A stretch of DNA of 64,000 nt from Propionimicrobium lymphophilum DSM 4903. GTDB lineage: Bacteria; Actinomycetota; Actinomycetes; Propionibacteriales; Propionibacteriaceae. Both the position numbers and the translations under genes were made by a program. Below, piece by piece: positions 40,070-56,574 of the stretch. The stretch covers positions 248,001 to 312,000 of the forward strand of contig NZ_AUIB01000001.1 in assembly GCF_000423485.1 (NCBI RefSeq), in the 5' to 3' direction. Every line of letters begins with the position of its first letter. Positions within the stretch are counted from its first letter, which is position 1. The notes under the pieces are model-generated. The model saw nothing but the letters and a program-made list of their open reading frames with translations. It did no database searches and had not been told where the DNA came from.

Positions 40070-40071
40070 AC

Positions 40072-41802: not shown

Positions 41803-41809
41803 AAAATAA

Positions 41810-41853
41810 AAAGCGGGGTGCGGCTGGATTATCTGCCGGCCGCACCCCGCTTT
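41810..41853. terminator. Bidirectional terminator between the ABC operon and the surface-protein gene
   Basis: AAAGCGGGGTGCGGCTGG pairs with CCGGCCGCACCCCGCTTT, 17 of 18 matching and one G-T pair, with an 8-base loop. A-rich and T-rich flanks on the two sides fit use in both directions. Confidence 0.92.
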
Positions 41854-41864
41854 GTTATGAAAAA

Positions 41865-44800
41865 TTAGTTGTCACGACGCCTAATGGCGACCGCAACCGC
41901 AGGGACGATCAGGCCAAGCAGCGCCAGCTCAGCGAACGGCAAACTACCTGCGGTGCCGGTATCCGGTAGGCCACGCCCAGCTCGCTTGGCCTTGGTGTTC
42001 TCCGCATGCTTCGTGCCTTGTTTTTCGGAAGCGTTTGCGTCTGCCGCACGTTTTGGCTGCTGCTGGTTAGAAGCATTCGAGTTAGCTTTTACATTGACGT
42101 CTACGTTAAGCGTCAAGCCACTGGTTTGGCCGGTAGCAACTACTTTGTGTTGACCAGCTGTAGCACCAGCCGGAACAGTGATTGGCTCAGCAATTGCGCC
42201 TTGCCCGTCTGCAGTAGTGCTACCTAACTGAACAATCACAGAGTGGAACTCCAGCCGCACCTCTTCGCCAGGTAAGAAGCCATAACCGGTTACCCTGACA
42301 TTAATGCCCGCATACTCCGAGCTTGGCGTAGTGGTGACTTTGGCAACGGCCAGCCAGGCTTCCTTGGCCTTAGCCTGAGTGGACTTGGCGCCAGCAAGTT
42401 TTGTGATTGCTGAATTGAGAGCAGTCTGTGCCTTTTGAGTAGCAACAGCCTTGGCTGCTAGAAGCTCAGCTTTTTGCTTTGCAACGGCAAACTTTTCACC
42501 TAGCTTGGCTAGGTCGCCATCAGCAGCCTGTTGTTCGGTTAGGCCGATAGCCGGATCAATAGAGTTGACCTTTTCTGCCAGTGCGCGTTTGGCTTTAGCC
42601 GTAGTTTCTGCCGTGGTTGCCTTTTCTGCGGCCTTGGTGGCTATGTCGTCAGCGGCACGCTTAGCATCGTTGGCTTTTTCTAGGTCAGTGGCAGCCTTAT
42701 CGGCGTTTTTCTTGGCCTGCTGATACTTGGTCTCTTGCTCTGCAATTACGCGCAGAGCCTCTTTGGCCTGATTATCAGCTTGAGTAGCTGTAGCAAGCTC
42801 ATCTTGGGCGGTCTGCTTAGCGATGTTTGCTTGGTCAAGTTTGGTCTGTGCATCCGCAGCCTTGGTAGTGGCGGCTCCTGCTGTTGCAGTGGCTTGTGCT
42901 AATTTTTCATCGGCTGCAGCTTTTTCTGTTTTCTTGACTTCAAGATCCGCTTTCGCTTTCTTCAGCTCTGCAACTGCTTGTGCCGCAGCAGTGCCTGAGA
43001 CAGCAGCTTCAAGGTTTTTTTGTTTTTGCTCAACGATAGCTTGCTTATTGGCAACTTCGACGGCTAGCTTAGCGACTTTAGCCCGTTCTTCGGTTTCTGC
43101 CTGCTTAGCACTATCGGCTAGTTGTTTAGCAGTTTTAGCTTCATCGTTGAGCCGAGCTGCTTGCTCAGCTGTTACTTTGGCATCATTTGTCTTGCTGGCC
43201 AGGTCTGTTATAGCACTCTGCAGAGCTTGGGCTTTGGTATTAGCTTCTTCCTGGGCAGCAGCGACGGCTGCAGCTTTTTGCGTCTTAGCGTTGAGCGCCT
43301 CGGTAAATGTCTTATTAGTGTTGGTCAGCTCAGCGTTAGCGTCATCAAGGTCTTGCTGGGCTTGTTTTGCTGTCTGCCGCGCTGTATCAAGATCCTGCTG
43401 AGCTTTAACAACCGCAGGATCAGTAGTTGAAGCGTTACCGCTCTTTACCGCGTTGTAGTACTTGTCGAAGATAGCTTCGTACTCGTCGACATCGTAAAGA
43501 GTCTCATCGCCTTCTAAATCCCAAAAGCCAGCGCCCTTTTTCTGGACGAAAATCTGATTTGTTGTCCACTGGTTGAGCCCTGGATACATGGCTAAATGAG
43601 CACCGAAGGGGCCATCTTGAGCGATAGCTAGACCTGTCGCGACAAATTTTGCTCCGCTATTTTGATCGATGATTGTCTCGTAATGGCCGGTTTGGCCACC
43701 ATTGTTTTCCTCAAGATTGCGTTTTTCACCCCAATACCAGCCGTTATTGTAGCCAGTGCTTCCACCATCGAAACGCTCTTTGCTGGTTCCCGCTATGGAC
43801 TGGTCGCCAAATGGATTTGGCATTTTTGTGTTTGCAGCCATGCTCACGTTTTCGCCAACATCAAGATGGTTAGAGTGAGGAGTGCCAGCTCCAGCTTTGA
43901 ATAATTTTACCGAAAGGTTTGTGCTCGACTGGGCTATTGCCATCAACGTGTGGCTTACTTTCAGTGGGGCTAGGCCGTGCAAAGCGCGTAGTCTATTGCC
44001 TTCTCTAATCCACTGGAAAGAGGCCTTCATATTGTCCAGATTGGTGGCGTTGGTTGCGTCAGTTGAATCGTTATAGCCGGTGAAAGTTTTGCCGTAAACG
44101 GGGTTACCTACTTCGTTCACCGGAGCGTTATTTGTGCCATACGTTGACGTCTTGTACGAATCAGTTTTACCAACCGTATTTGGGCCATAGGTGTCAGAAT
44201 CTAGAATCTTTACCGCGTCAGTTGCTCCAACACTCTCAAAGAAGCCGCGCGAGCCTTCCTTAAAAGTGTGACCTGGGCCAGCGTTCTTCTTAGCCTCGGC
44301 TAGAGCCTGTTCGGCAGCGGAAACCTTAGCTTCTGCTTGAGTCTTGGCTGTGGTGGCCTTTTCCACCTTGTCTTTTGCAGAATTAATCTGTTCTTGTGCC
44401 GCATTAACAGCAGCTTCAGCTTGTTGCTGGTTTTCTTTAGCCTTTTTCAGCTTCTGCTGGGCAGTTTCAGCGGCAATTTCAGCAGCTTCTTTGTCTTGTT
44501 GAGCTTCGCCTAACGCCTTTTCAGCGGCCTGTTTAAGGACATCTGCACGTTCGGCCGCCTGCTGTTTCTCGGCTGCACTAGCTGCTGTTTCTTTAGCTTT
44601 TACCTCAGCGACGGCGAGAGTATTGTCAGCTGCGGCCTTTTTGGCTTGTGCTGTTTGCAGCTCGTTCTTTGCTGTATCTAGGGCCGCCTCAGCTCTTTGG
44701 ACGATCTCGTCGCTCTCTCCTGAAGTGGCATCAACTTTTGCCTGAGCTTCTTTAACTGCTTGTTCTGCTTTGTCCTGGGCCTCGGCTGCGTCTTCGCTTG

Positions 44801-45467
44801 CCTTGGTTGCGTTGACCACATCGGCGTCAGCCTTGGTCTTTGCCTCGTTTGCTACGGTCAGAGCCTGCTGGGCGGCTTTAGTGTCGGCGTCAGCCTTCGT
44901 CTTGGCGGAGGCGGCTTCATCAAGCCCGGCTTTGGCCTGCGCGGCGTCCTGCTTGGCCTTATCGAAAGCTGCCTGATCCGGAGCCGGAGCATCGGCCAGA
45001 GCCTTATCGGCATCTTCCTTTGCGGTGGTGGCGGAGGTGACGTTCTCGTCGGCCTTAGCGGCATCGGCGTCCGCGGTTTCCTTAGCCTTGTCTGCCTCGG
45101 CTGCTGCGGTTTCTGCAGCGACTGCGTCAGCTTCCGTGCTCTTCTTAGCCTCGTTTACGGAGTCGACAGCGGCCTGCTTAGCTGCCTTTGCCTCTTTAGC
45201 CGCTGCCTGCTCGGCAGCGGTGGCATCGTCTGCGGCTTTCTGGGCTTTGGCCTCGGTCTCAGCGGCCTGCTGCGCCTTAGCGTCGGCGTCGACAAGCTCT
45301 CTAGCCTCGTGGCCGTCCTTGGCTGGTTTTACCTGCGAATCGTTGGTGGCAGGCGCGGTATCTTCCGCGAAGCTAGTAGCGGCCCCAGTGAAAGCGCTCG
45401 TGGCGGCGATTCCGGCTGCTAAAGCCGTGATAGAAAATTTGGAAACTGCGTTGTCAGGCTTCGCCAT
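41865..45467 (-). CDS. LPXTG-anchored surface protein with coiled coils and a central CAP domain
   Basis: 1200 residues. Numbered from the start used here: signal peptide 1-35 (ALAAGIAATSAFTGAATSFA), an Ala/Lys/Glu-rich coiled coil to about 395, a CAP/SCP domain about 405-680 (LRALHGLAPLKVS, HSNHLDVGENVSMA, GQTGHYETIID, GFWDLEGDETLYDVDEYE), a second coiled coil to about 1040, an Ig/E-set-like domain about 1045-1130 (NVRVTGYGFLPGEEVRLEF), a linker, then LPDTG, a hydrophobic helix and RRRDN. Sortase should attach it to peptidoglycan. The start at 45467 has AGGGGAAG 5 bases before it; an ATG 15 bases upstream is weaker. The CAP role is unknown. Confidence 0.9.
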   Translation of the reverse strand: MAKPDNAVSKFSITALAAGIAATSAFTGAATSFAEDTAPATNDSQVKPAKDGHEARELVDADAKAQQAAETEAKAQKAADDATAAEQAAAKEAKAAKQAAVDSVNEAKKSTEADAVAAETAAAEADKAKETADADAAKADENVTSATTAKEDADKALADAPAPDQAAFDKAKQDAAQAKAGLDEAASAKTKADADTKAAQQALTVANEAKTKADADVVNATKASEDAAEAQDKAEQAVKEAQAKVDATSGESDEIVQRAEAALDTAKNELQTAQAKKAAADNTLAVAEVKAKETAASAAEKQQAAERADVLKQAAEKALGEAQQDKEAAEIAAETAQQKLKKAKENQQQAEAAVNAAQEQINSAKDKVEKATTAKTQAEAKVSAAEQALAEAKKNAGPGHTFKEGSRGFFESVGATDAVKILDSDTYGPNTVGKTDSYKTSTYGTNNAPVNEVGNPVYGKTFTGYNDSTDATNATNLDNMKASFQWIREGNRLRALHGLAPLKVSHTLMAIAQSSTNLSVKLFKAGAGTPHSNHLDVGENVSMAANTKMPNPFGDQSIAGTSKERFDGGSTGYNNGWYWGEKRNLEENNGGQTGHYETIIDQNSGAKFVATGLAIAQDGPFGAHLAMYPGLNQWTTNQIFVQKKGAGFWDLEGDETLYDVDEYEAIFDKYYNAVKSGNASTTDPAVVKAQQDLDTARQTAKQAQQDLDDANAELTNTNKTFTEALNAKTQKAAAVAAAQEEANTKAQALQSAITDLASKTNDAKVTAEQAARLNDEAKTAKQLADSAKQAETEERAKVAKLAVEVANKQAIVEQKQKNLEAAVSGTAAAQAVAELKKAKADLEVKKTEKAAADEKLAQATATAGAATTKAADAQTKLDQANIAKQTAQDELATATQADNQAKEALRVIAEQETKYQQAKKNADKAATDLEKANDAKRAADDIATKAAEKATTAETTAKAKRALAEKVNSIDPAIGLTEQQAADGDLAKLGEKFAVAKQKAELLAAKAVATQKAQTALNSAITKLAGAKSTQAKAKEAWLAVAKVTTTPSSEYAGINVRVTGYGFLPGEEVRLEFHSVIVQLGSTTADGQGAIAEPITVPAGATAGQHKVVATGQTSGLTLNVDVNVKANSNASNQQQPKRAADANASEKQGTKHAENTKAKRAGRGLPDTGTAGSLPFAELALLGLIVPAVAVAIRRRDN

Positions 45468-45511
45468 TTTCTTCCCCTTCATTCAATTTCTTAAACAAAT
45501 ATGAGAGTATT

Positions 45512-45538
45512 CGAGGCCACTGATAAAGAACGGCCTCG
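45512..45538 (-). repeat. Hairpin in the leader of the surface-protein gene
   Basis: CGAGGCC and GGCCTCG form a 7-bp perfect stem with a 13-base loop, about 45 bp upstream of the start codon. No T run follows. It may stabilise or regulate the message. The rest of the 45483-45708 gap holds the diverging promoters, which I cannot place exactly. Confidence 0.4.
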
Positions 45539-45708
45539 TTCCTCAAAATGACAAATAGACGCGCTAAGCGTCACTAAGAATTATGTCAGAGTGCCTTTTC
45601 GAGATTGTTGCACCCCCATTGTTTAGCTGCTTTCCGGGCAATCTGAGCTCAGACCGGTTACTTTGTGGTTTTTACGCTGGTGCTTTTGCTCATAGATAAA
45701 CTTGGCGC

Positions 45709-46164
45709 ATGTTATTAGCCGAAGCGCTTGCAATGCGCGCCGATATCCAACGCAGGCTGACTTCCCTTAAGGGCAGGTTGCTGAAGGTGGCCCGCGTCCA
45801 AGAAGGGGAGAGGCCCGACGAAGATCCGGCCAAGCTGCTTTCAGAAAGCGAAGAGCTGATGCGTCAACTCGAAGAACTAATCTGCAGAATTAACGCCACT
45901 AACTCTGTGACGAAGTTCGACGAGACCCGCACGCTAACCGACGCGATAGCTGCTCGGGACGTCGCTCTGATGCGCAGGCGTCTGCTCGCCGAGACGGCTG
46001 ACGCTGCGAGCACCCGTCAAGACGTCTATTCGCGCTCCGAGGTGCGTTATGTCTCTTCCGTGGACGTGCCCAAGCTGCGCGCCCAGGCCGATGAGGCGGC
46101 GAAAGAATATCGCCTTCTGGACACGAAAATCCAGCAGCTGAACTGGCTGACCGAACTTAACTAA
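45709..46164 (+). CDS. DIP1984-family protein
   Basis: A 151-residue, highly helical cytosolic protein. MLLAEALAMRADIQRRLTSL, the middle TNSVTKFDETRTLTDAIAAR and a final KIQQLNWLTEL match the DIP1984 family, sometimes labelled septicolysin. The family has no proven function; it forms helical bundles. It diverges from the surface-protein gene and stands alone. Confidence 0.85.
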   Translation: MLLAEALAMRADIQRRLTSLKGRLLKVARVQEGERPDEDPAKLLSESEELMRQLEELICRINATNSVTKFDETRTLTDAIAARDVALMRRRLLAETADAASTRQDVYSRSEVRYVSSVDVPKLRAQADEAAKEYRLLDTKIQQLNWLTELN

Positions 46165-46207
46165 AAAGACTTGTTGGTAGTTTCGCGATTTTGGCGAGCG
46201 TCACCGC

Positions 46208-46280
46208 GGCCGACGGCTTCGGCCACATGGCAGTCCGACATAGGCCCGGACTAGGGCGTTCAAGCCGCCCGAAATCACTC
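46208..46280. ncRNA. Candidate structured RNA with alternative stems
   Basis: Three hairpins follow one another: GGCCGA/TCGGCC (46208-46224), AGTCCG/CGGACT (46232-46252) and GGGCG/CGCCC (46254-46270). A competing 9-bp stem, CATAGGCCC (46239-46247) with GGGCCTATG (46272-46280), would enclose the third and exclude the second. Mutually exclusive stems upstream of an operon are the hallmark of attenuators and riboswitches. No known class is recognised. Confidence 0.35.
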
Positions 46281-46507
46281 AGGGCCTATGCACGGCGCAC
46301 AAGAGCACTACGCGAGAGCGTGGCATGGCTTATTGATTTACTACCGGACGCTGAAAATCGCGAGGCGAGGGTGGGCTCGGGGACCTGTCTTTTTAGCTTT
46401 TAGATTGAAGAGTCAGCTATGGCGAAAACAGATTCGTGTAAAGTTGTAGAGCATAAGTGATTCAGCTCAAGGAAGGGCTGGGTCATTGCTTTGTTAACTA
46501 GCGAAAA

Positions 46508-46538
46508 CTTCTCGTATTGAGGAACCGAGTACGAAAAG
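46508..46538 (+). promoter_or_regulatory. Inverted repeat directly before araB
   Basis: CTTCTCGTA and TACGAAAAG match at 8 of 9 positions and are 13 bases apart. The 3' arm ends in the AAAAGG that serves as the araB ribosome site. It could be an operator or a hairpin that limits translation. Confidence 0.4.
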
Positions 46539-46544
46539 GCGAAG

Positions 46545-48212
46545 ATGCCAGAAACTAAGTATCTAGTCGGTATTGACTTTGGAACACTATCTGGGCGTGC
46601 TGTTGTGGTTCGCGCAGACAACGGTGAAATGCTTGGCACTGCTGTTGCCGAGTATCCGCACGGCGTCATGGACGAGACGTTGGATAGCGCTGATGGCCAG
46701 GCGCTGCCGCCTGGCTACGCGCTGCAGGATCCGGGCGATTATGAGTACGTTCTTCGCCGTGTAGTTATTGGAGCCGTCAAGGACGCCGGAATCGACCCCA
46801 CTAGTGTGGTCGGAATTGGCGTGGACTGCACGTCGGCAACCGTCTTGGTAACGGACAAATACGGCGTGCCGCTTTGCAAGAAACCCAAGTATGCGAATAA
46901 TCCGCATTCTTGGATCAAGCTGTGGAAGCACCACGGTGCGCAGGAGCAGGCGGACCGCCTGGTTGCCGCCGCTAAGGAACGTAACGAGCCTTGGCTGGCA
47001 CGTTACGGTGGGGTCCTTTCTTCCGAGCTGCTGCTGCCGAAGGTCCTGGAGACCTACGAGAAGGCCCGCGATGTTTACGACGGAGCTTCTTACTTCGTCA
47101 ACATGATGGACTGGCTGACCTGGAAGTTGACAGGAAAATTGACTTACGCGGCTGGCGACTCTGGCTACAAGCGCATGTACCAGGATGGCCATTACCCCTC
47201 GCACGAATACCTGGAATCGGTTTCTAAGGGCTTCGGCACTGTTTTCGAGGACAAGATGTCTGGCCCGATTCTGCCGTTGGGAGCCAAAGTTGGTGGTTTG
47301 CATAGCGAACCTGCAGCAATTCTGGGGCTGCCTGAAGGAATCGCAGTCGCTTCTGGCAATATTGACGCGCACGTTGTTGTTGCTGGTGCTAACGCCGTCA
47401 AGCCTGGTCAGTTGACCGCCATCATGGGCACCTCCAGTTGCTACGTAGTTAACGATAAGGAATTGCACGAGGTGCCTGGCACCTTCGGTGTTGTTGATGG
47501 TGGCGCTGTTGACGGTGCCTGGGGTTACGAGGCAGGCCAGACGGCAGTTGGCGACATTTTCGCGTGGTACACCGAGAACTGCATCCCTGTAAGGTACGAG
47601 GATCTCGCCAAGGAGAAGGGCGTTTCCGTCCACGAGCTGCTTTGCGAACTAGCCATGCAGCAGAAGATTGGCGAACACGGTCTAGTAGCGCTGGATTGGC
47701 ATAACGGCAACCGTTCAATTCTTTCCGATTCGCGCCTTTCGGGCACGATCATGGGCTTGACCCTAATTACAAAACCGGAAGAGATCTACCGAGCACTACT
47801 CGAATCGACCTGCTTCGGTGCGCGCGTGATTATCGAAAACTTTGAGCAGTACGGCGTCAAGATCGACGAGATTGTTGCCGCAGGTGGTCTGCTGAAGAAC
47901 GAGTTCTACATGCAGATGCTCGCGGACATCACCCGCAAGCCGATCACGATTTCGACGGCTCCGCAGACTGGCTCCTTGGGTGCTTGCGTCTTCGCTGCCA
48001 CTGCCGCCGGTATCTACCCATCGGTATTCGAAGCTGCTGAGGCAATGGCACAGACCGAGCAGTACAAGTACAAGCCGAACGAGCCCAGCTCCAAGGAGTA
48101 TGACGTGGTCTTCAGCTTCTACAAGGAACTGCACGATCACTTCGGGCGTGGCGAGACTGACATCATGGCAAGGATGAAGGCATTCCAGAGCGAGCAGAAG
48201 GAAAAGAAGTAG
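46545..48212 (+). CDS. araB: L-ribulokinase
   Basis: A 555-residue FGGY-family carbohydrate kinase. KYLVGIDFGTLSGRAVVV is the N-terminal phosphate motif, VGIGVDCTSATVLVTD follows, and GTSSCYVV, GYEAGQTAVGDIFAW and IVAAGGLLKNEFYMQMLAD belong to the C-terminal ATP domain. The length and the ribulokinase-type GxxxGQ segment fit AraB. It phosphorylates L-ribulose to L-ribulose 5-phosphate. araD begins 3 bp later. No araA is present in the window. Confidence 0.93.
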   Translation: MPETKYLVGIDFGTLSGRAVVVRADNGEMLGTAVAEYPHGVMDETLDSADGQALPPGYALQDPGDYEYVLRRVVIGAVKDAGIDPTSVVGIGVDCTSATVLVTDKYGVPLCKKPKYANNPHSWIKLWKHHGAQEQADRLVAAAKERNEPWLARYGGVLSSELLLPKVLETYEKARDVYDGASYFVNMMDWLTWKLTGKLTYAAGDSGYKRMYQDGHYPSHEYLESVSKGFGTVFEDKMSGPILPLGAKVGGLHSEPAAILGLPEGIAVASGNIDAHVVVAGANAVKPGQLTAIMGTSSCYVVNDKELHEVPGTFGVVDGGAVDGAWGYEAGQTAVGDIFAWYTENCIPVRYEDLAKEKGVSVHELLCELAMQQKIGEHGLVALDWHNGNRSILSDSRLSGTIMGLTLITKPEEIYRALLESTCFGARVIIENFEQYGVKIDEIVAAGGLLKNEFYMQMLADITRKPITISTAPQTGSLGACVFAATAAGIYPSVFEAAEAMAQTEQYKYKPNEPSSKEYDVVFSFYKELHDHFGRGETDIMARMKAFQSEQKEKK

Positions 48213-48215
48213 TAA

Positions 48216-48914
48216 ATGCACATTTCTGATTTTTCGTCCGATATCCGCGACCGCATTCAGTGGACTCGCGAGAAGGTGGCAAAGCTGCACGCCGAACTGC
48301 CGGCAAACCAGTTGGTTGTATGGACGGCGGGCAATGTCTCCGAGCGCGTTGAGGGCGAGGACCTGTTCGTCATCAAGCCTTCGGGTGTGCGCTACGACGA
48401 GCTAGAGCCCGGCAAGATGGTGGTCTGTGACCTTGACGGCAACAAGATCGACGACGACACCTCGAAGGGTCTGAACCCGTCGTCGGACACTGCCGCTCAC
48501 GCATACGTCTACCGTCACATGAGCGAGGTGGGCGGGGTTGTGCACACACACTCGCCGTACGCCACCGCTTTTTCTGCCGTGCGCAAGCCGATCCCATGCG
48601 TGCTTACTATGATCGCCGATGAGTTCGGCGGCGAGATTCCCGTTGGGCCGTTCGCGATCATCGGTGACGACTCGATTGGCAGGGGAATCGTCGAGACGCT
48701 CAAGTCTTCGCGGTCCCCAGCTGTGCTGATGGCAAACCACGGCCCGTTCACTGTGGGCCAGCACGCAACCGCAGCCGTGAAGGCGGCGGTGATGGTGGAA
48801 GAGGTCGCCAAGACCGTGGCGATCGCTAATTCCCTGGGCGAGGTGGTGCCGGTTGAGTCCGAGGCCATCGACAAGCTCTGGGAACGCTACCAAAACGTCT
48901 ACGGCCAGAACTAA
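48216..48914 (+). CDS. araD: L-ribulose-5-phosphate 4-epimerase
   Basis: A 232-residue class II aldolase/adducin-fold zinc enzyme. WTAGNVSER and IKPSGVRYDEL bind the phosphate, SSDTAAHAYVYRH carries the catalytic Asp, and the zinc histidines are in HTHSPYA and MANHGPFTVG. It converts L-ribulose 5-phosphate to D-xylulose 5-phosphate. It follows araB directly. Class II aldolases (FucA/UlaF-like) are close relatives, but length and linkage favour AraD. Confidence 0.92.
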   Translation: MHISDFSSDIRDRIQWTREKVAKLHAELPANQLVVWTAGNVSERVEGEDLFVIKPSGVRYDELEPGKMVVCDLDGNKIDDDTSKGLNPSSDTAAHAYVYRHMSEVGGVVHTHSPYATAFSAVRKPIPCVLTMIADEFGGEIPVGPFAIIGDDSIGRGIVETLKSSRSPAVLMANHGPFTVGQHATAAVKAAVMVEEVAKTVAIANSLGEVVPVESEAIDKLWERYQNVYGQN

Positions 48915-48941
48915 AGCTTCAATCAATAGGAAGGATTTGTT

Positions 48942-50003
48942 ATGGCAACGATGGTTGTCTTGGGCAGTGGAATTATGGCCACCGCTCTGTCGTTCCCGGT
49001 CACTGAGAACGGCCACGAGGTTCGCCTTGTCGGCACGCATCTTGACCGCGAGATCATCGATTCAATCCAGAAGACCGGGGTGCACCCGAATCTTGGCCTG
49101 AAGGTCAACGAGGGCATCAAGGCTTACCAGCTCGAGGACGCTGCCGAGGCGTTTGAGGGTGCGGACGTCGTCATGTGTGGCGTTAACTCGTTCGGTATCG
49201 AGTGGATCGCTGAGCAGTTCAAGACCCTGCTTAAGCCGGGTCAGAAGCTGCTTTGCGTGACGAAGGGCATGCGCGCAGACGAGGACGGCACTTTGCATCT
49301 GCTGCTAACCATTATCCAGAACGCGCTACCCAAGGAACTTGTAGATCAGGTTTCTTGGAACGCGGTTGTTGGCCCGTCGATTGCTGGCGAGGTTGCCGTT
49401 CACCACGACACTTGCGTCGTGTTCTGCGGCCACGATCAGGACGATCTGGATTATCTGGCTGACATGTTCCGCACGGATTACTACCACGTGTGGACTTCGT
49501 TGGACTTCGTTGGCCACGAGACTGGCGCTGCAACTAAGAACATCTACGCGTTCGCTGCCGGTTTCGCCAAGGGCATGCTTAAGGCGGCAGGCAAGGAGAA
49601 CGACAAGTACGTCATGTACAACTACTCCTCGGCCGTGTTTGCTCAGGGTGCTAAGGAGCTGATCCAGTTCATCAAGCTGATGGGCGGCGATCCGAATACG
49701 GGCATCGGCCTGGGTGGCGTTGGCGACATGTTCGTCACCTCCATGGGCGGACGTAACGTGAAGGCCGGCACTTTCGTCGGTCAGGGCGTGCCGTTCTCTG
49801 AGGTGCGTAGCGTCCACATGAAGGGCGTGACGCTTGAGGGCGTCGCAGCTATTTCAGTGGTTGGTAAGGCACTGCGTGCGCTGACCAAGCGTGGCGTGAT
49901 CAAGGAAGAGGATTTCCCGCTGTGCCGCTTCCTGTATTCGGTTGTCGAGGAGGACCACCCGCTGGAAATGCCGTGGGATGAGTTCTTTGCGGACCTGAAA
50001 TAG
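48942..50003 (+). CDS. NAD-dependent glycerol-3-phosphate dehydrogenase-like protein
   Basis: 353 residues. A GpsA-type Rossmann start (MVVLGSGIMATALSFPVTEN) with VTKGM and VVGPSIAGEVA; the active-site lysine and its surroundings appear as GAATKNIYAFAAGFAKGM, and GVGDMFVTSMGGRN matches the GxGDLxxTCxS-xxR motif. Differences from true GpsA (GSGIMATA for GxGxWGTA, and extra residues at the end) suggest another polyol phosphate substrate. It is the third gene of the araBD operon, 27 bp after araD, with AGGAAGG as ribosome site. A pentitol- or pentulose-phosphate dehydrogenase is a reasonable guess. Confidence 0.8.
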   Translation: MATMVVLGSGIMATALSFPVTENGHEVRLVGTHLDREIIDSIQKTGVHPNLGLKVNEGIKAYQLEDAAEAFEGADVVMCGVNSFGIEWIAEQFKTLLKPGQKLLCVTKGMRADEDGTLHLLLTIIQNALPKELVDQVSWNAVVGPSIAGEVAVHHDTCVVFCGHDQDDLDYLADMFRTDYYHVWTSLDFVGHETGAATKNIYAFAAGFAKGMLKAAGKENDKYVMYNYSSAVFAQGAKELIQFIKLMGGDPNTGIGLGGVGDMFVTSMGGRNVKAGTFVGQGVPFSEVRSVHMKGVTLEGVAAISVVGKALRALTKRGVIKEEDFPLCRFLYSVVEEDHPLEMPWDEFFADLK

Positions 50004-50021
50004 CAGGGTTTTAAATACTGT

Positions 50022-50055
50022 GTGGCTGCCTTCCTCGGGAGGCAGCCACTTTTTT
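50022..50055 (+). terminator. Terminator of the araB-araD operon
   Basis: GTGGCTGCCT, an 8-base loop, AGGCAGCCAC and then six T. It begins 19 bp after the last stop codon. Confidence 0.95.
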
Positions 50056-50189
50056 GCATAAATTTTTCTGGTCGAATGTCCCGCAAGTCTCTAACAGCCT
50101 TGAGGCGTAATCTGCGCCGATCCTAGAAGAGTAACGCAGTAATTCTCCCATGCGCATTGGCCGTGAGGTTTTCTGCGAATTGAAGGTAG

Positions 50190-50258
50190 TGCAATGATTT
50201 GGTTAGTTCTACTGCAAAGATTTGGTACAAGTTGCTGCAATGATTCGGTAAGAAGGTG
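50190..50258. repeat. Three direct repeats with exact 23-bp period
   Basis: TGCAATGATTTGGTTA begins at 50190, TGCAAAGATTTGGTAC at 50213 and TGCAATGATTCGGTAA at 50236; consensus TGCAAWGATTYGGTW. The 23-bp step is about two helical turns, so bound proteins would sit on one face. The array ends at the ribosome site of the broken AAA ATPase gene, a place expected for an operator. 50056-50189 shows nothing else. Confidence 0.7.
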
Positions 50259-50414
50259 TGGTTGTGATTCCGCGGATCGCTAGTGAATACCTCGCACGGT
50301 TGGGCCAATGGTTTCCTGTAGTTTCTGTTACCGGGCCGCGGCAGAGCGGAAAATCTCACTGTTTTAGCTGCTGAAAAGTTTCTAACGGATTATCCGAAAA
50401 CTTCTCAGAACTAA
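50258..50414 (+). pseudogene. Broken AAA ATPase gene (DUF4143-type), 5' end only
   Basis: AAGAAGG and GTG (50258, or 50264) start a frame reading VIPRIASEYLARLGQW, then FPVVSVTGPRQSGKS, the N-terminus and Walker A of AAA ATPases that carry a DUF4143 domain. Right after the Walker A lysine the frame shifts: it ends at TGA 50372-50374, while the next frame continues LTVLAAEKFLTDYP to TAA 50412-50414. About 350 or more further residues are missing. hsdR converges from the other side. Confidence 0.75.
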
Positions 50415-50428
50415 GGCGTTAACGAGCT

Positions 50429-53400
50429 TTATCCCAGCACGTGGAAACGGTCGAAGAAGTCCGTCAACCAGCCGATGACGCGCTTCTTGCGGCTCAGGCG
50501 GCTGTTTGGCCCGGAGTCGAAACGGGAGCCAGCAGGCAGCATCTTGTCGATGTCAGTGCCGGACGTCTGTAGCCTGCCAAGTCGGAACATCGTTTCGATG
50601 AATTGGTCGGTTTCGGGCTGCTTGAGCCTCTCCTTCTGCACCATCTTGCTGATCTCTTCGGCTTTCCGCTCGTCCAGGTACTGCTTCCATTCCTCGTTGA
50701 TATCGCCGGTGGCGGAAACCGAGTCGACGAACCTTTCGATGAGGTCGATCTTGTTTTGCAGCGTGGGGCTGGACTTGACCGTGCGGCGAATTTCTTCGCG
50801 CACTTCTTCCTTCGATTTCTCTTCGTGCTCGTCGCGGTATTTCTCGACCAGCATGAGAATGTAGTCGACGTTAACCTCGACTTGCTTCATCAACTCGATC
50901 TCGAAGGTGAGGTCGTCGTTGATTTCTTCCGGCTCGCCTTGAGTCTGATTGCGGCGGTCGCGGTATAGGTCGAGGTAAGTGGACTGGTAGTCCTGCAGAT
51001 CGCGGGCGGGTAGCGGATCGGCGTCTTCGAATTCGTCGAATGCCGTCAGGATGTTTCGCAGCCGAAGCAGTTCGCCGAATATCCGGATGAATTCGTCTTT
51101 CTCGGCCTCGCTGGTAATCATCTGGCCGGGTGTCCACTTGCCCAGGTCGTCCAGTTTGGTCAGGTATTCGTCGAAGTAATGACTAAATGGCTGCAGGATC
51201 GTGATGCTGTCGGCCTGTTTATTGCCGAATAAAGCGATTGCTTCGTTGGTTTCGTCCTCGAGGTTTCTGAACGACACGATATTGCCGTATGTCTTCACCG
51301 AGTTGAGGATGCGGTTCGTCCTCGAGAATGCCTGCAGCAGCCCGTGGTGGTGCATGAATTTGTCTACCCACAACGTGTTCAGCGTCGGCGCGTCGAAGCC
51401 GGTGAGCAGCATGTTAACGACGATAACCATGTCTAGTTCGCGCGATTTCATGCGCATGGTGACGTCGTCGTAGTAGTTGCTGAAGCCTTGCGCGGAAGTG
51501 TCGAAGCTGGTGCCGAACATGGCGTTGTAGTCGTTGATCGCCCTGTCGAGGAAAAGCCGGTCGATCTGGTTGAGTGAGTCGGTGTCGAACTCTTCTTCGG
51601 GCAGCAGGCCTTCGCTGTATTGATCGGAGTTGGGCGCATACGTGAAGATCGTGGCGATTTTCAGCCGCTTCGTCGGGTCTTTGATGTCTCGTTGCTGGTC
51701 GGCGAATTCCAGGTAGTAGGTCTTTGCGGCGTCCACCGAGGCCGTCGCGAAGATCGAGTTGAAGCCGCGCACCCGTTTGTCTTTGAGAACGTAGTTTGAG
51801 TTGCGTTTGGTTTTCTGGTCGAAGTGGTTGAGAACGTAAGAGACCACCATGGCGATCCTGCGCCTATCCAGCAGGGCTTTCTCAGTGGCGATGGACGACA
51901 CTTCTTCGTATTCCAGGTCGTCTTTTGCCTTGATGGTGTTGACGTAGTCGATGCGAAACGGCAGCACGTTTTCGTCGGCGATGGCGTCGGAGATGGTGTA
52001 GGAATGCAGCCTGTCGCCGAACACCTGCGGGGTGGTGCGAATGACTGCCGAGCCGGCGTTCTTGTTTTCGTTGAAGATAGGTGTGCCGGTGAAGCCGAAC
52101 AGGTGGTATTTGCGGAAGGCTTTGGTGATTGCCTTGTGCATGTCGCCAAATTGGCTGCGGTGACATTCGTCGAAGATGATCACGACGTGTGCATCGTAGA
52201 TGGCGTGCGACTTTGTGGTCTTTACGAAGTTTGAGAGCTTCTGAATCGTGGTGATGACGATCTTGGAGTCAGGGTTGCTGAGCTGCTCGCGCAGTTCTTT
52301 CGTGGACTTGTTTGAGCTGACCGCGCCTTTCTGGAACTTCTCGTATTCTTTCTTGGTTTGGAAGTCCAGGTCTTTGCGGTCAACGACGAACAGCACCTTG
52401 TCGATGCCCTCGAGCTGGGTGGCGAGCTGTGCGGTTTTGAAGCTGGTCAGCGTCTTGCCTGAGCCGGTGGTGTGCCAGATGTAGCCGCCGGCTTCGATGC
52501 AGCCCAGTTTCTTGTAGTTGGTGGCCAGTTGGATGCGGTTGATGATTCGTTCGGCGGCGACGATCTGGTAGGGGCGCAGCACCATTAGCGCCTGGTCGGA
52601 AGTGAACACGCAGTATTTGATGATGACGTTCAGCAGCGTCCGCTTGGAAAGGAACGTCTTGGCGAAGTCCATCAGATCGGTGATGTGGTGGTTATGCGAG
52701 TCCGTCCACCACGATGTGAACTCGTAACTTGCCGACCCGGAGCGGCCTCGATTTTTGGTTCCGCTGGTGTGCTGGGCTCTGGTGGTGTTGGAGTAGTACT
52801 TGGTATGAGTGCCGTTGGAGATAATAAATAGCTGCGCATACTGGAATAGCCCAGACCCAGCCCAGAAGCTGTCGCGCTGGTAGCGGTTGATCTGGTTGAA
52901 GGCTTCGCGCAGGGCAACTCCGCGTCGTTTCAGTTCGATGTGAGCCATCGGTAGGCCGTTTACCAATATGGTGACGTCGTAGCGGTTCTTGTAATTGCCC
53001 TCGACCTCGTACTGGTTAATCACCTGCAGCCGGTTGCGGTGAATATTTTTCTTATCGATCAGATGAATGTTCTTTTGGGTGCCGTCTTCGCGTTCGAGCA
53101 CCAGGGCGGCGGGCGTGGCCTGAATGATCGCGGTTTTATCCAGGATGCCCTGGGATGGGTTAGCTAGCTGACCTTTGAAGAAGCGTGTCCACTCGGTTTC
53201 AGTGAACTGGATGTCGTTCAGGGCCTCGAGTTGGCGGCGAAGGTTTGCTACCAGATCATCCTCGGTTTTGATGGGCAGGAACTCGTATTCCTGCTTGCGA
53301 AGTTGGGCAATCAACGCGTTCTCGAGGTCTGCCTCAGACTGGTAAGCCTTTTCTTTGCGCTCAGGAATCTCATATTCAGCCACGACTGTGGCATCCGGCC

Positions 53401-53431
53401 CAGCGGCAATAGGAAGATACGTGCTGCTCAC
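50429..53431 (-). CDS. hsdR: Type I restriction enzyme, R subunit
   Basis: 1000 residues. The N-terminal nuclease shows the PD-(D/E)xK pattern in YDVTILVNGLPMAHIELKRRG (Asp, then ExK). The translocase has Walker A IWHTTGSGKTLTS, DECH in IIFDECHRSQFG, motif III FGFTGTP and motif VI region LLQAFSRTNRI. It translocates DNA with ATP and cuts unmethylated foreign DNA, in an R2M2S complex. The start codon overlaps the hsdS stop by 4 bp. All motifs are intact, so the system can restrict. Confidence 0.95.
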   Translation of the reverse strand: MSSTYLPIAAGPDATVVAEYEIPERKEKAYQSEADLENALIAQLRKQEYEFLPIKTEDDLVANLRRQLEALNDIQFTETEWTRFFKGQLANPSQGILDKTAIIQATPAALVLEREDGTQKNIHLIDKKNIHRNRLQVINQYEVEGNYKNRYDVTILVNGLPMAHIELKRRGVALREAFNQINRYQRDSFWAGSGLFQYAQLFIISNGTHTKYYSNTTRAQHTSGTKNRGRSGSASYEFTSWWTDSHNHHITDLMDFAKTFLSKRTLLNVIIKYCVFTSDQALMVLRPYQIVAAERIINRIQLATNYKKLGCIEAGGYIWHTTGSGKTLTSFKTAQLATQLEGIDKVLFVVDRKDLDFQTKKEYEKFQKGAVSSNKSTKELREQLSNPDSKIVITTIQKLSNFVKTTKSHAIYDAHVVIIFDECHRSQFGDMHKAITKAFRKYHLFGFTGTPIFNENKNAGSAVIRTTPQVFGDRLHSYTISDAIADENVLPFRIDYVNTIKAKDDLEYEEVSSIATEKALLDRRRIAMVVSYVLNHFDQKTKRNSNYVLKDKRVRGFNSIFATASVDAAKTYYLEFADQQRDIKDPTKRLKIATIFTYAPNSDQYSEGLLPEEEFDTDSLNQIDRLFLDRAINDYNAMFGTSFDTSAQGFSNYYDDVTMRMKSRELDMVIVVNMLLTGFDAPTLNTLWVDKFMHHHGLLQAFSRTNRILNSVKTYGNIVSFRNLEDETNEAIALFGNKQADSITILQPFSHYFDEYLTKLDDLGKWTPGQMITSEAEKDEFIRIFGELLRLRNILTAFDEFEDADPLPARDLQDYQSTYLDLYRDRRNQTQGEPEEINDDLTFEIELMKQVEVNVDYILMLVEKYRDEHEEKSKEEVREEIRRTVKSSPTLQNKIDLIERFVDSVSATGDINEEWKQYLDERKAEEISKMVQKERLKQPETDQFIETMFRLGRLQTSGTDIDKMLPAGSRFDSGPNSRLSRKKRVIGWLTDFFDRFHVLG

Positions 53432-54633
53432 TTCGCCTCCTCGAAAGTTAGAAGACGATCACGGTAATACTCATACTGTTTACGACGCGCCTGGATTTCG
53501 GCGGGAAGGCCAGAGGACAGGTCGGTGGTTAGCGCATCGAACTTGTCGAGGACAGAGACGATGCGTTCCTGCTCGGAGAGTGGTGGAATAGGGATTTTTG
53601 TATTCAAAATTATCTCATTGTAAAGACGTTTTATCGTTCCGCCTTGAGGAACTATCCAAGGTTTGGCTTGGTAGATGTAATAGAGAAATTTATTTATAAC
53701 TAGTGATTCGTCATGCTCTAGCCAAACTATATTAGAATCTTGGAAATAGGCAGGCTTGCCATCATAGATAACAGTATTTCCAATAGTTCCTGAAGCAGAG
53801 ATTAAAATGGAACATTTTTTCGGAAAAGAGAAATCATTTTTTAGTTTATGATAAAGCTCTTTACTGATGTAAGCGTCAGCTTTTTTACCGAAAGTACCGA
53901 TCTTGAAGAATGGGACGTCGCCACTTTTTTCTGTTTGATTTTTCAGTACTCGTTTGCACATTCTCACAGTGCCTACTTCGCCAAGCGGCATTAGCCTAAT
54001 ACCCCCCCCTAGACGGGCTTCAAGATTTTCAAAGCTCAAAAGCGAGTCGCGGTAGTACTCGTACTGCTTGCGACGAGCTTCTAGCTCCGCTTCTAGCTGC
54101 GTAAATGAATCCAAAATTCGGACAATCTCGTCCTGGACGGGGAGTGGTGGAACTGGAATTTCGATTTTCTCAAGAGCAGTAGGAGAAACTCTTCTAACTT
54201 TTGTTCCAGTAATAAATTTTTGCTTTGCTTTGTGAAATTGTGCTGAACCAAAAAAGTAAGATACGAATTGCGCGTTCAAAGATGAAGAAAAACTGCAGCA
54301 GTCGCCACTAAAGGCTAATTTTTCTTTTCCTAACCATGCTACTGCTTTGCAAAGATCTTCATCGTTCTCGCTTGTTGTTGCTATTAATACATCGCCTGGG
54401 GATGCGTGTTTTAGCTTCAACGAATCTGTCTCGGAAACGTAACTTGTTGTGTGCTTTATTGCGTAGCTATATTGCGTGTATATCTGACCATAATGAATCG
54501 CTGGTACGCCTGCATTAACAAGCTGTTTCTTTTGAAGTCCCGTGCCACGTTCGAAAACACCCACTTCGCCCATTGGGGAATGTTCAACACCATCCGGGCA
54601 AAGCTCCCGGATCAGCTCATCAATCCGGCTCAT
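53428..54633 (-). CDS. hsdS: Type I restriction-modification specificity subunit, with central poly-G tract
   Basis: 401 residues with the usual twofold plan: target recognition domain 1, conserved helix (EARRKQYEYYRDSLLSFE, residues about 185-202), domain 2, conserved helix (QARRKQYEYYRDRLLTFEEA, at the C-terminus). The two halves read a split DNA site and bind two HsdM. Both recognition domains are AT-rich, as in exchangeable domains. A run of eight G at 54009-54002, codons for LGGGI around residues 208-212, separates the halves. Loss or gain of one G gives a stop within a few codons; with loss, TAA overlaps ATG 53991, which opens the second half (MPLGEVGTVRM). Phase variation is therefore likely. 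Confidence 0.93.
   Translation of the reverse strand: MSRIDELIRELCPDGVEHSPMGEVGVFERGTGLQKKQLVNAGVPAIHYGQIYTQYSYAIKHTTSYVSETDSLKLKHASPGDVLIATTSENDEDLCKAVAWLGKEKLAFSGDCCSFSSSLNAQFVSYFFGSAQFHKAKQKFITGTKVRRVSPTALEKIEIPVPPLPVQDEIVRILDSFTQLEAELEARRKQYEYYRDSLLSFENLEARLGGGIRLMPLGEVGTVRMCKRVLKNQTEKSGDVPFFKIGTFGKKADAYISKELYHKLKNDFSFPKKCSILISASGTIGNTVIYDGKPAYFQDSNIVWLEHDESLVINKFLYYIYQAKPWIVPQGGTIKRLYNEIILNTKIPIPPLSEQERIVSVLDKFDALTTDLSSGLPAEIQARRKQYEYYRDRLLTFEEAK
54002..54009 (-). repeat. G8 homopolymer, likely slippage site in hsdS
   Basis: Eight C on the plus strand, eight G in the hsdS message. With 9 G the frame reads GGG TAT TAG and stops; with 7 G it reads GTA TTA GGC TAA, and that TAA shares its last A with ATG 53991. 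Tracts of this length slip during replication. Confidence 0.8.
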
Positions 54634-56189
54634 TTCACGCCCTCCAGTTCTGCCACGATCGCGTCGATGGCTTTACGCAACTTAGCTTGGCGGGTAACGA
54701 TCTGCTCGATCTCTTTGTTTAGCTCGGTGATGTTGATGACCTCGCGGGTGTCTTCCGGCTCGACGTGGCTGGATACCGACATGTTGTAGTCGGCCTCGGC
54801 GATGTCCTCGATTGCCACCAGCTGGGCGAAATGAGTGAGGTTTTCGCGTTTAGCGTATGCGTCGATGATCTGGTTGCGGTGGGTTTCGGTTATCTGGTTC
54901 TTCGTGCCTGAGCGTTCGAAAAGCTGCGAGGCGTCGATGAACAGAACGTTCGAGTCCTTCTTTGACTTCTTTAACACCAGTACGCAGGTGCCGATGGTCG
55001 TGCCATAGAAAAGGTCGACGGGCAGCTGGATCACGGCGTCTACATAGTTGTTGTCTACCAGGTATTTGCGGATCTTCTTCTCGGCGCCGCCACGGTAAAG
55101 CACGCCGGGGAACTGAACGATGGCCGCCGTGCCGTCCTCGGCCAGCCACGACAGGATGTGCATGGTGAACGCCAGATCGGCCTTGCCCTTCGGCGCCAGC
55201 ACGCCGGCAGGGGAGAAGCGCTCATCGTTAATCAGGGTGGGCGAATCGGAGCCAACCCAGCGCGTAGAATAGGGTGGATTCGACACGATCGCCTCAAACG
55301 GCTCGTAGTCCCAATGTGCCGGGTCGGTGAGCGTATCACCCAGGGCGATGTTGAATTTTGAGAAGTTGATGCCGTGCAAAAACATGTTGATGCGGCAAAG
55401 GTTATAGGTGGTCAGGTTGATCTCTTGGCCAAAGAAACCCTCGTCCACGTTCTCGCGGCCCAGCACCTTCGCGAACTTGAGAAGTAGCGACCCACTGCCG
55501 CAAGCAGGGTCATACACGCGGGAGACGCGCTTTTTGCCTAACACGGTAATGCGCGCGATCAGCTCCGAGACGTCCTGCGGGGTGAAGAACTCGCCACCCG
55601 ACTTGCCTGCCGACGAGGCATACATGGTCATCAAATATTCGTAGGCGTCGCCGAACGTGTCGATGTCGGCGTCCTGGTAGTTGCCGAACTCTAAATCTCC
55701 AATAGCATCCAGCAGTTTGACTAGCTTGTCGTTGCGCTGCTCAATCGAGTTACCCAGGCGGGCGCTGTTGACATTGATGTCGTCGAATAGGCCCTTCATG
55801 TCGTTTTCGGACTCACTGCCGATAGCCGAAGCCTCAATGTTCGCAAACACCCTGGCCAAGGTCTCGTTCAGGTTGAGGTCGCGCGGGGCGCTGCGACGCA
55901 CGTTCTCGAAAAGTTCTGACGGCAGAATAAAGAAGCCAAGGGTGTTGACCGCGTCGTTGCGAACTTGTTCGGCCATGTCGTCGGAAATCTGTGCGTAGTC
56001 GAAGCCGGCGTTGCCATATTCAGCCTCACCCTCGTTAACCCAGGTGGTGATGTGCTCCGAAATGAATCGGTAAAACAACATGCCCAGCACGTAGGCCTTG
56101 AAATCCCAACCATCGACGCTGCCACGTAAATCGTTAGCGACCCGCCAGATAGTGCGGTGAAGATTAGCGCGCTGCTGCGATGCTGCCAT
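54630..56189 (-). CDS. hsdM: Type I restriction-modification DNA methyltransferase
   Basis: About 519 residues. An N-terminal helical domain (WRVANDLRGSVDGWDFKAYV) precedes the N6-adenine methyltransferase with SAM motif YDPACGSGSLLLKF and catalytic SNPPYSTRW. A C-terminal helical tail (ITELNKEIEQIVTRQAKLRK) contacts HsdS. It methylates adenine in host sites. ATG 56189 (MAASQQR) is chosen for GGAGGG just upstream; a start 27 bases earlier lacks this. First gene of hsdM-hsdS-hsdR, each overlapping the next by ATGA. Confidence 0.95.
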   Translation of the reverse strand: MAASQQRANLHRTIWRVANDLRGSVDGWDFKAYVLGMLFYRFISEHITTWVNEGEAEYGNAGFDYAQISDDMAEQVRNDAVNTLGFFILPSELFENVRRSAPRDLNLNETLARVFANIEASAIGSESENDMKGLFDDINVNSARLGNSIEQRNDKLVKLLDAIGDLEFGNYQDADIDTFGDAYEYLMTMYASSAGKSGGEFFTPQDVSELIARITVLGKKRVSRVYDPACGSGSLLLKFAKVLGRENVDEGFFGQEINLTTYNLCRINMFLHGINFSKFNIALGDTLTDPAHWDYEPFEAIVSNPPYSTRWVGSDSPTLINDERFSPAGVLAPKGKADLAFTMHILSWLAEDGTAAIVQFPGVLYRGGAEKKIRKYLVDNNYVDAVIQLPVDLFYGTTIGTCVLVLKKSKKDSNVLFIDASQLFERSGTKNQITETHRNQIIDAYAKRENLTHFAQLVAIEDIAEADYNMSVSSHVEPEDTREVINITELNKEIEQIVTRQAKLRKAIDAIVAELEGVK

Positions 56190-56574
56190 GAAACCCTCCA
56201 GGTGTAGGTACGCCAACTAAGTTTATCGGTGAATCTGATTTTCTAGCTCAGACCCAACCAGAATAAGCGTAAAGATCGTCACTGACATTTTTTGGTAGAG
56301 ATATTGGCTTAGCAATTTTATAGCTGAATGCAGTGATAAAAAATCAACTATCCGGATTTTCCGGATAGTTATTTCGCGCTTTCATTCAAGCTCGTCACCT
56401 GCACATTGAACCATCGGAATTTTTTCAATAGTTCCCAGATCAGCACGCTTAAAACCCTATGCTGCAATTTTCGCGGCACCACCATTATTGGTGCGAAAGT
56501 TTAGGTCTCAAATTTTGGCAAGGGGAATGGCTGTTTGTGAAGGTCTTGTCAGCAAGACCTTGCCTTCAGCAAGT
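56190..56574. other. AT-rich gap between hsdM and the toxin gene, no gene seen
   Basis: No coding frame is supported. AACTATCCGG and CCGGATAGTT (56346-56370) form a 10-bp stem with a 5-base loop, possibly a terminator for the toxin gene or an operator. GCACCACCATTATTGGTGC lies near 56475 and belongs to a segment with a diverged copy near 57245-57300. The hsdM promoter must lie here. Confidence 0.5.

Follow-up and report, generated by a model that had tools for sequence, protein, structure and literature searches.

A possible kinase-first sugar-alcohol operon with a GpsA-like dehydrogenase in Propionimicrobium lymphophilum DSM 4903

In the erythritol/pentitol catabolism of Brucella and Sinorhizobium (EryA-EryB), the alditol is first phosphorylated by an FGGY kinase, its phosphate is then oxidized by a relative of glycerol-3-phosphate (G3P) dehydrogenase, and TIM- and RpiB-type isomerases come next (PMC3599248). 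In this study, a partly similar gene set, the operon araB-araD-gpsL, was analyzed in the genome of Propionimicrobium lymphophilum DSM 4903, within a stretch of 64,000 nucleotides (contig NZ_AUIB01000001.1, positions 248,001 to 312,000) that is referred to as the window and whose numbering is used throughout. As in the EryA-EryB system, an FGGY kinase and a relative of G3P dehydrogenase are combined in one operon. While EryB is a flavin enzyme related to GlpD, the window encodes a soluble, nucleotide-dependent dehydrogenase of the GpsA type (GpsL), a kinase of the AraB branch and, replacing the isomerases, AraD. A GpsA-type enzyme in the place of EryB would be what is new within kinase-first polyol catabolism; neither a GpsA-type polyol phosphate dehydrogenase nor this operon appeared among the open-licence papers listed in the searches aimed at them.

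Two other described systems are relevant. The araABDLM operon of Bacillus subtilis, whose AraM has glycerol-1-phosphate dehydrogenase activity (PMC5059525), shares AraB and AraD with the window, and fuller relatives of the window operon additionally carry genes for an AraL-like HAD-IIA phosphatase (HAD) and an AraM-type dehydrogenase (AraM). Unlike araABDLM, this gene set lacks araA, includes a GpsA-type dehydrogenase, a second FGGY kinase, RpiB and a membrane protein, and is split over two contigs in P. lymphophilum. Erythritol and adonitol are fermented by every one of the 21 strains of Propionibacterium freudenreichii described in PMC4437456, where no reconstruction of either pathway was possible; a second "L-arabinose locus" reported there comprises two araB genes, araM and araL.

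The elements of the window operon are:

46165–46544, + strand: leader of 380 bp from a DIP1984-family gene to araB, presumed promoter region
46545–48212, + strand: araB, AraB-type FGGY kinase of a GpsL-linked clade (555 aa), with Ser97, Lys209, Asp274 and Glu329 at the ribulose-contact positions
48216–48914, + strand: araD, AraD-type L-ribulose-5-phosphate 4-epimerase (232 aa), with the Asp of a PSSD motif and an Asp aligned with residue 120 of Escherichia coli AraD
48942–50003, + strand: gpsL, dehydrogenase (353 aa) that resembles GpsA but falls in a clade of its own, probably an NAD(P)-dependent alditol-phosphate dehydrogenase
50022–50049, + strand: intrinsic terminator at the operon end (12-pair stem, 4-base loop and T tail)

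In the list of open reading frames, the three genes have the coordinates given in the first-pass annotation and are separated by gaps of only 3 and 27 bases. By this arrangement they constitute one operon, closed by the terminator. Six terminator-like sites were found, against 4.5 expected by shuffling, and the site at 50022–50049 is the richest of them in G-C pairs. No match to the sigma-70 consensus was found within the 380-bp araB leader. The genome (2.04 Mb, 100% complete) contains no PF02610 match, i.e. no araA, while 26 of the 57 genomes of the same search were positive. The first-pass annotation, which had described an araB-araD operon with a GpsA-like dehydrogenase and no araA and had suggested a look for araA elsewhere, was borne out.

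We slightly favour the view that this is a kinase-first operon for the catabolism of a sugar alcohol. The AraB-derived FGGY kinase would use ATP to phosphorylate the terminal carbon of an alditol, GpsL would convert the alditol phosphate with NAD(P)+ into a ketose phosphate, and AraD would convert L-ribulose 5-phosphate to D-xylulose 5-phosphate. The simplest chemistry for the three genes, which is chemically complete, would lead from ribitol or L-arabitol to its 5-phosphate, then to L-ribulose 5-phosphate and finally to D-xylulose 5-phosphate. GpsL probably acts on the phosphate of an alditol other than glycerol; that its product is L-ribulose 5-phosphate is a tentative assignment. The reaction direction and the kinase-first order are what we infer from the gene set.

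The core of the argument is the genes that accompany GpsL. A scan of genome contigs yielded 43 GpsL loci, and 51 were compared after the loci of relatives and the window had been added; two of them, L066 (P. cyclohexanicum) and L087, represent the same genome, with an identical 12-kb stretch. Neighbours were counted in the 34 loci whose flanks reach 3 kb or more in either direction from the gene. In 20 of them, an FGGY kinase gene of the same orientation is no more than 6 kb away from gpsL (within 400 bp in 13), seven have genes of the phosphotransferase system (PTS) instead (EIIC-GAT in four, including the same-genome pair L066 and L087, and EIIA alone in three), and L057 has a sugar ABC transporter. 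None of these three kinds of genes was found in the remaining six (L052, L053, L086, L088, L089 and L090). The pairing of GpsL with kinases is not a product of chance and recurs in many genomes. A phosphorylating partner is present in 27 of the 34 loci, which suggests that a phosphate is put on the substrate before the GpsL step. Because FGGY kinase or PTS genes adjoin the GpsL loci, the substrate is probably a phosphorylated alditol, and the earlier proposal that the dehydrogenase acts on a phosphorylated polyol is still the best-supported one, with the reservation that the glycerol-phosphate contacts examined are unchanged (see below).

The loci differ in their extent. The order in the full Actinomycetaceae-type locus is DeoR, K2 (an FGGY kinase), RpiB, membrane protein, HAD, AraM, AraB, AraD, in some cases a further kinase, and GpsL. 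Loci of Gleimia (L058 and L059) consist of the kinase and GpsL only, and those on Rubrobacter plasmids contain a kinase, AraM, RpiB, HAD-IIA phosphatase, GpsL and then a GlpD-type dehydrogenase. In P. lymphophilum, genes for a membrane protein, a HAD-IIA phosphatase, the FGGY kinase K2, an AraM-like dehydrogenase and RpiB lie in one direction on another contig (C4), so by gene content this genome keeps the other half of the fuller locus apart from the operon.

The first-pass annotation had suggested that the pathway may be entered at a pentitol or a pentulose rather than at arabinose. Two valid queries detected no AraA in any of 107 loci, and together they recovered araA in all 16 positive-control loci. 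Across the 27 genomes with GpsL, araA is present in four; where AraB is encoded beside GpsL, it is absent from 14 of 16 genomes and present in two. The exclusion of arabinose is in line with these counts and with the AraB clade described below. Of the two proposed entry compounds, a polyol fits better, because a pentulose would require no dehydrogenase.

The window AraB was matched by two ribulokinase models and scores above the cut-off of each (NF003154, 671.9 vs 428; TIGR01234, 615.1 vs 583.25). In the phylogenetic tree, the GpsL-linked AraB proteins form a single clade (support 100) nested among actinobacterial AraB proteins linked to araA. The sugar site of AraB is known from the B. halodurans enzyme, in which L-ribulose is contacted by Ala96, Lys208, Asp274 and Glu329 (PMC4880283). 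At the first of these positions, all 18 GpsL-linked proteins have Ser, and the 13 comparison proteins (12 araA-linked AraBs and 3qdk; E. coli and B. halodurans included) have Ala (9) or Gly (4). The window AraB thus differs from the araA-linked ones at contact 96 and retains Lys208, Asp274 and Glu329. Since all 18 proteins belong to one clade, the replacement may reflect a single evolutionary event, yet it is a consistent change at the sugar site. A Deinococcus kinase annotated as ribulokinase, without araA nearby, has Ser there too. The E. coli ribulokinase also accepts ribitol and L-arabitol. Among the ribulose contacts, A96 is the only one at which the D-ribulokinase RblK differs from AraB (PMC12307932).

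AraD scores above the NF005123 cut-off (359.8 vs 251) and below that of the araD equivalog TIGR00760 (146 vs 389.1), and is the sole class II aldolase-family gene of the genome. It reads PSSD where the aligned aldolases read PSSE, and its second Asp falls on position 120 of the E. coli protein (1jdi; Asn at this place in entry 1k0w). With both epimerase-type Asp residues kept, we read AraD as a probable 4-epimerase, which would indicate L-ribulose 5-phosphate as an intermediate. An identity as a class II aldolase was considered and ruled out by the same two residues.

The scores of both proteins bear on a simpler explanation, according to which AraB and AraD merely process L-ribulose that has been imported or formed elsewhere, GpsL being a passenger. 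AraB and AraD each exceed a family cut-off (NF005123 in the case of AraD), and ribulokinases also act on imported ribulose (PMC12307932). Nevertheless, the conserved pair of neighbours is AraB-GpsL, AraD being the part that is sometimes absent, and the Ala/Gly to Ser replacement affects a ribulose contact of the kinase. We regard this explanation as very unlikely.

GpsL itself scores above the Pfam G3P dehydrogenase cut-offs (PF01210 and PF07479) and belongs to the GpsA type, not to the flavin (GlpD) family. With all NCBIfam GpsA models that it matches, its score stays short of the cut-off (best 163.5 vs 257). In the tree, GpsL and its paralogue GpsB form two distinct clades (support 100 and 99), both apart from canonical GpsA. 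The stem of the GpsL clade is long (2.5 changes per column), and its members occur in Actinomycetaceae, Propionibacteriaceae, Rubrobacter and Apibacter. In the cofactor loop, where the second strand of the cofactor fold ends, all 26 canonical GpsA proteins have Arg and all 46 GpsL proteins have Thr32, and the GpsL loop has two additional residues, Leu34-Asp35. The first-pass annotation had recognized this change; however, as the same Thr32 and Asp35 are found in all 21 GpsB paralogues and in the Archaeoglobus fulgidus protein 1txg, the loop is a marker of a clade and not a peculiarity of the window gene. Among the changes specific to GpsL are Asn82 (in place of Pro), Phe84 (in place of Gln), Met263-Phe264 and an insertion around Tyr223.

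The chain 1txg is the closest solved structure by sequence (2.4e-43), well ahead of bacterial and eukaryotic GpsA. It shares with GpsL the Thr and Asp of the cofactor loop and the GGRN phosphate motif, but it lacks the insertion near Tyr223, stands outside the GpsL and GpsB clades, and its identity to the proteins in the tree does not exceed 39%. A preference for NADP+ has been reported for the GpsA homologue of A. fulgidus (PMC5059525), and the loop therefore does not settle the cofactor of GpsL.

The catalytic site leads to another explanation, namely that GpsL is a genuine sn-glycerol-3-phosphate dehydrogenase (dihydroxyacetone phosphate (DHAP) reductase), which provides lipid synthesis with G3P or removes NADH while pentoses are broken down, and which sits behind araBD for co-regulation. 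Lys108, Lys199, Asn200, Asp262, Thr266, Arg271 and Asn272 (Lys125, Lys210, Asn211, Asp263, Thr267, Arg274 and Asn275 in Leishmania numbering) are invariant in the 46 GpsL proteins. We take Lys108, Lys199 and Asp262 to be the catalytic Lys/Lys/Asp, and Thr266, Arg271 and Asn272 to bind the phosphate. All catalytic and phosphate-contact positions examined are identical in the 46 GpsL, 21 GpsB and 26 canonical GpsA proteins, and the closest solved relative, 1txg, is named G3P dehydrogenase. A census of the 27 GpsL genomes (canonical GpsA, PF01210 above 140 bits; GpsA-like, above 30 bits) points the same way: canonical GpsA is missing from 21 of them, as it is from P. lymphophilum, and GpsL is the sole GpsA-like gene in three, so GpsL could be a housekeeping enzyme. 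Against this stand the scores under every matched GpsA cut-off, the separate clade with its long stem, the coexistence of GpsL with canonical GpsA in six of the 27 genomes and its repeated position beside pentulose-type kinases or polyol-type PTS. Moreover, no lipid-synthesis genes were recognized in the GpsL contexts read, and a true glycerol kinase above the cut-off, present in 27 of 28 genomes, is another source of G3P. On balance, a housekeeping G3P dehydrogenase seems rather unlikely.

The unchanged active site, the name of 1txg and the missing canonical GpsA nevertheless weigh against the polyol operon, as do the following points. An unchanged phosphate site favours a phosphate beside the position that is oxidized, the arrangement found in DHAP and in erythrulose 1-phosphate; L-ribulose 5-phosphate has its phosphate three carbons from the oxidized one. 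In five loci with AraB beside GpsL, AraD is lacking (L050, L054, L061, L062 and L076). Growth tests are also adverse. The Arcanobacterium haemolyticum type strain 11018 ferments no adonitol, L-arabitol, erythritol or glycerol (PMC3035375); a full locus (L073) is carried by another strain of this species, ET43. Tests of Ancrocorticia populi, which has a GpsL locus (L045), with adonitol, xylitol, D-arabitol, erythritol and glycerol all gave negative results (PMC6612551). Such negative strip tests are compatible with polyol use under other conditions, yet they are of no help to the proposal. The polyols searched for are not mentioned in the accessible parts of two papers on Mobiluncus metabolism (PMC12208373 and PMC9241533).

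The phosphate site and the loci without AraD are more easily accommodated by a tetritol route, in which the kinase and GpsL would turn erythritol or threitol into erythrulose phosphate and TIM-like/RpiB isomerases would yield erythrose 4-phosphate, AraD being optional or secondary. The conserved site suits a ketone beside the phosphate, steps of the TIM/RpiB type belong to known tetritol pathways (PMC10733421; PMC3599248), and the RpiB of the loci is near the D-erythrulose-4-phosphate isomerase model, although under its cut-off (139.9 vs 240). In Acidipropionibacterium, GpsL occurs together with a TIM-like gene, SorC and PTS. Where GpsL of propionibacteria is accompanied by a TIM-like isomerase and a PTS of the galactitol type, erythritol or another tetritol is an equally likely substrate. 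The window operon, however, contains an AraD with epimerase residues, no TIM-like gene adjoins it, and A. haemolyticum and A. populi do not use erythritol (PMC3035375; PMC6612551), so for the operon described here we consider the tetritol route improbable.

The kinase-first reading may extend beyond this operon. Widespread modules of Actinomycetota, which Apibacter would have received by transfer, may pair an FGGY kinase with a dehydrogenase of its own that is of the GpsA type (GpsL or GpsB) or the AraM type, each pair using up one alditol by way of the phosphate; GpsL would be a new nucleotide-dependent alditol-phosphate dehydrogenase derived from the GpsA fold, and the fermentation of erythritol and ribitol by propionibacteria would be explained. 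We regard this generalization as quite possible, if a little short of an even chance. If the kinase-first reading of the operon is right, the label of G3P dehydrogenase and the arabinose labels of AraB and AraD are mis-assigned in the carrier genomes, including those of urogenital and oral bacteria, and candidate genes for the use of erythritol and adonitol in propionibacteria become available. GpsL was found in three of four genomes of the genus of P. cyclohexanicum. A genome of this genus (G086; 2.65 Mb in a single contig) carries DeoR-RpiB-membrane protein-HAD-K2 and AraM-AraB, its AraB likewise falling in the GpsL-linked clade and having Ser at the contact position. It has no GpsL, and Kin5-GpsB-DeoR is located about 60 kb away instead. 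This gene set would support an AraB/AraM module in polyol users and is no test of GpsL.

In P. lymphophilum, exactly two genes have the GpsA N-terminal domain, those for GpsL and GpsB (C1:11622-12539 region). The first-pass annotation had named as contrary to it a sole gpsA in the genome that acts on G3P; the presence of GpsB rules out the first half of this, although no canonical GpsA remains. The gene for GpsB is preceded by its own FGGY kinase gene, then comes a DeoR-type regulator, and it adjoins GlpABC and the glycerol kinase GlpK. GpsB was not accepted as an ordinary GpsA either, as it is below the matched GpsA cut-offs, outside the canonical and GpsL clades and behind its own FGGY kinase. 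The search for a true gpsA elsewhere, proposed along with the annotation, therefore produced a second GpsA-like gene and no ordinary one.

The genome encodes six FGGY kinases and two RpiB proteins, and no galactitol-type PTS permease was found in it. On contig C5 (L107:8729-11812), an FGGY gene resembling the GpsB-associated kinase is convergent with a second AraM-like dehydrogenase gene. Genes for a Zn-alcohol dehydrogenase, a SorC-type regulator, a DeoC-family aldolase and an FGGY kinase lie in a row in L105:3307-7544 (C1:27307-31544), probably a further cluster for a polyol or deoxy-sugar. The membrane protein of the fuller loci (about 350 aa; L049:3984-5051, + strand; L106:11885-12928, - strand, in P. 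lymphophilum) has no Pfam or NCBIfam match, and Foldseek returned nothing at E 0.001. In a second structural comparison of its model (pLDDT 80), chains of urea transporters and of the Amt/Rh family ranked first, with a Z of 8.5 and an rmsd of 5.9 across 197 residues, which is in the borderline range for helical proteins; the membrane protein is at most a candidate polyol channel.

The operon (window 46540-49995) was also compared with that of Mobiluncus mulieris (L041), the nearest relative with respect to both GpsL and AraB; the protein identities are 77, 73 and 86%. Over the compared region (window 40001-56000), similarity at the DNA level ends at the operon boundaries. Because it stops there, while the genome is labelled as belonging to the same family as P. 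cyclohexanicum, horizontal transfer of the operon is likely. Upstream, at 41865–45482 on the - strand, a coiled-coil-rich protein of 1205 aa with a CAP-like middle part and, by eye, an LPDTG-type C-terminus is encoded, probably a surface protein. Directly downstream, three genes look by eye like a type I restriction-modification set (50429–56216, - strand).

In other genomes, a gene for a PurU-like formyltetrahydrofolate deformylase follows gpsL in four loci (L055, L056, L057 and L062), and in L055–L057 two later genes resemble GlyA and FolD by eye, which hints at a one-carbon link. A reaction of the aldolase/formaldehyde kind, which PurU might suggest, plays no part in the explanation favoured here. 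Finally, on Rhizobium/Agrobacterium plasmids (L163 and L164), GpsL-like dehydrogenases (about 31% identity) are encoded behind a bifunctional aldolase/short-chain dehydrogenase, an ABC sugar transporter and GlpD, and this is probably another polyol-linked use of the GpsL-like fold.

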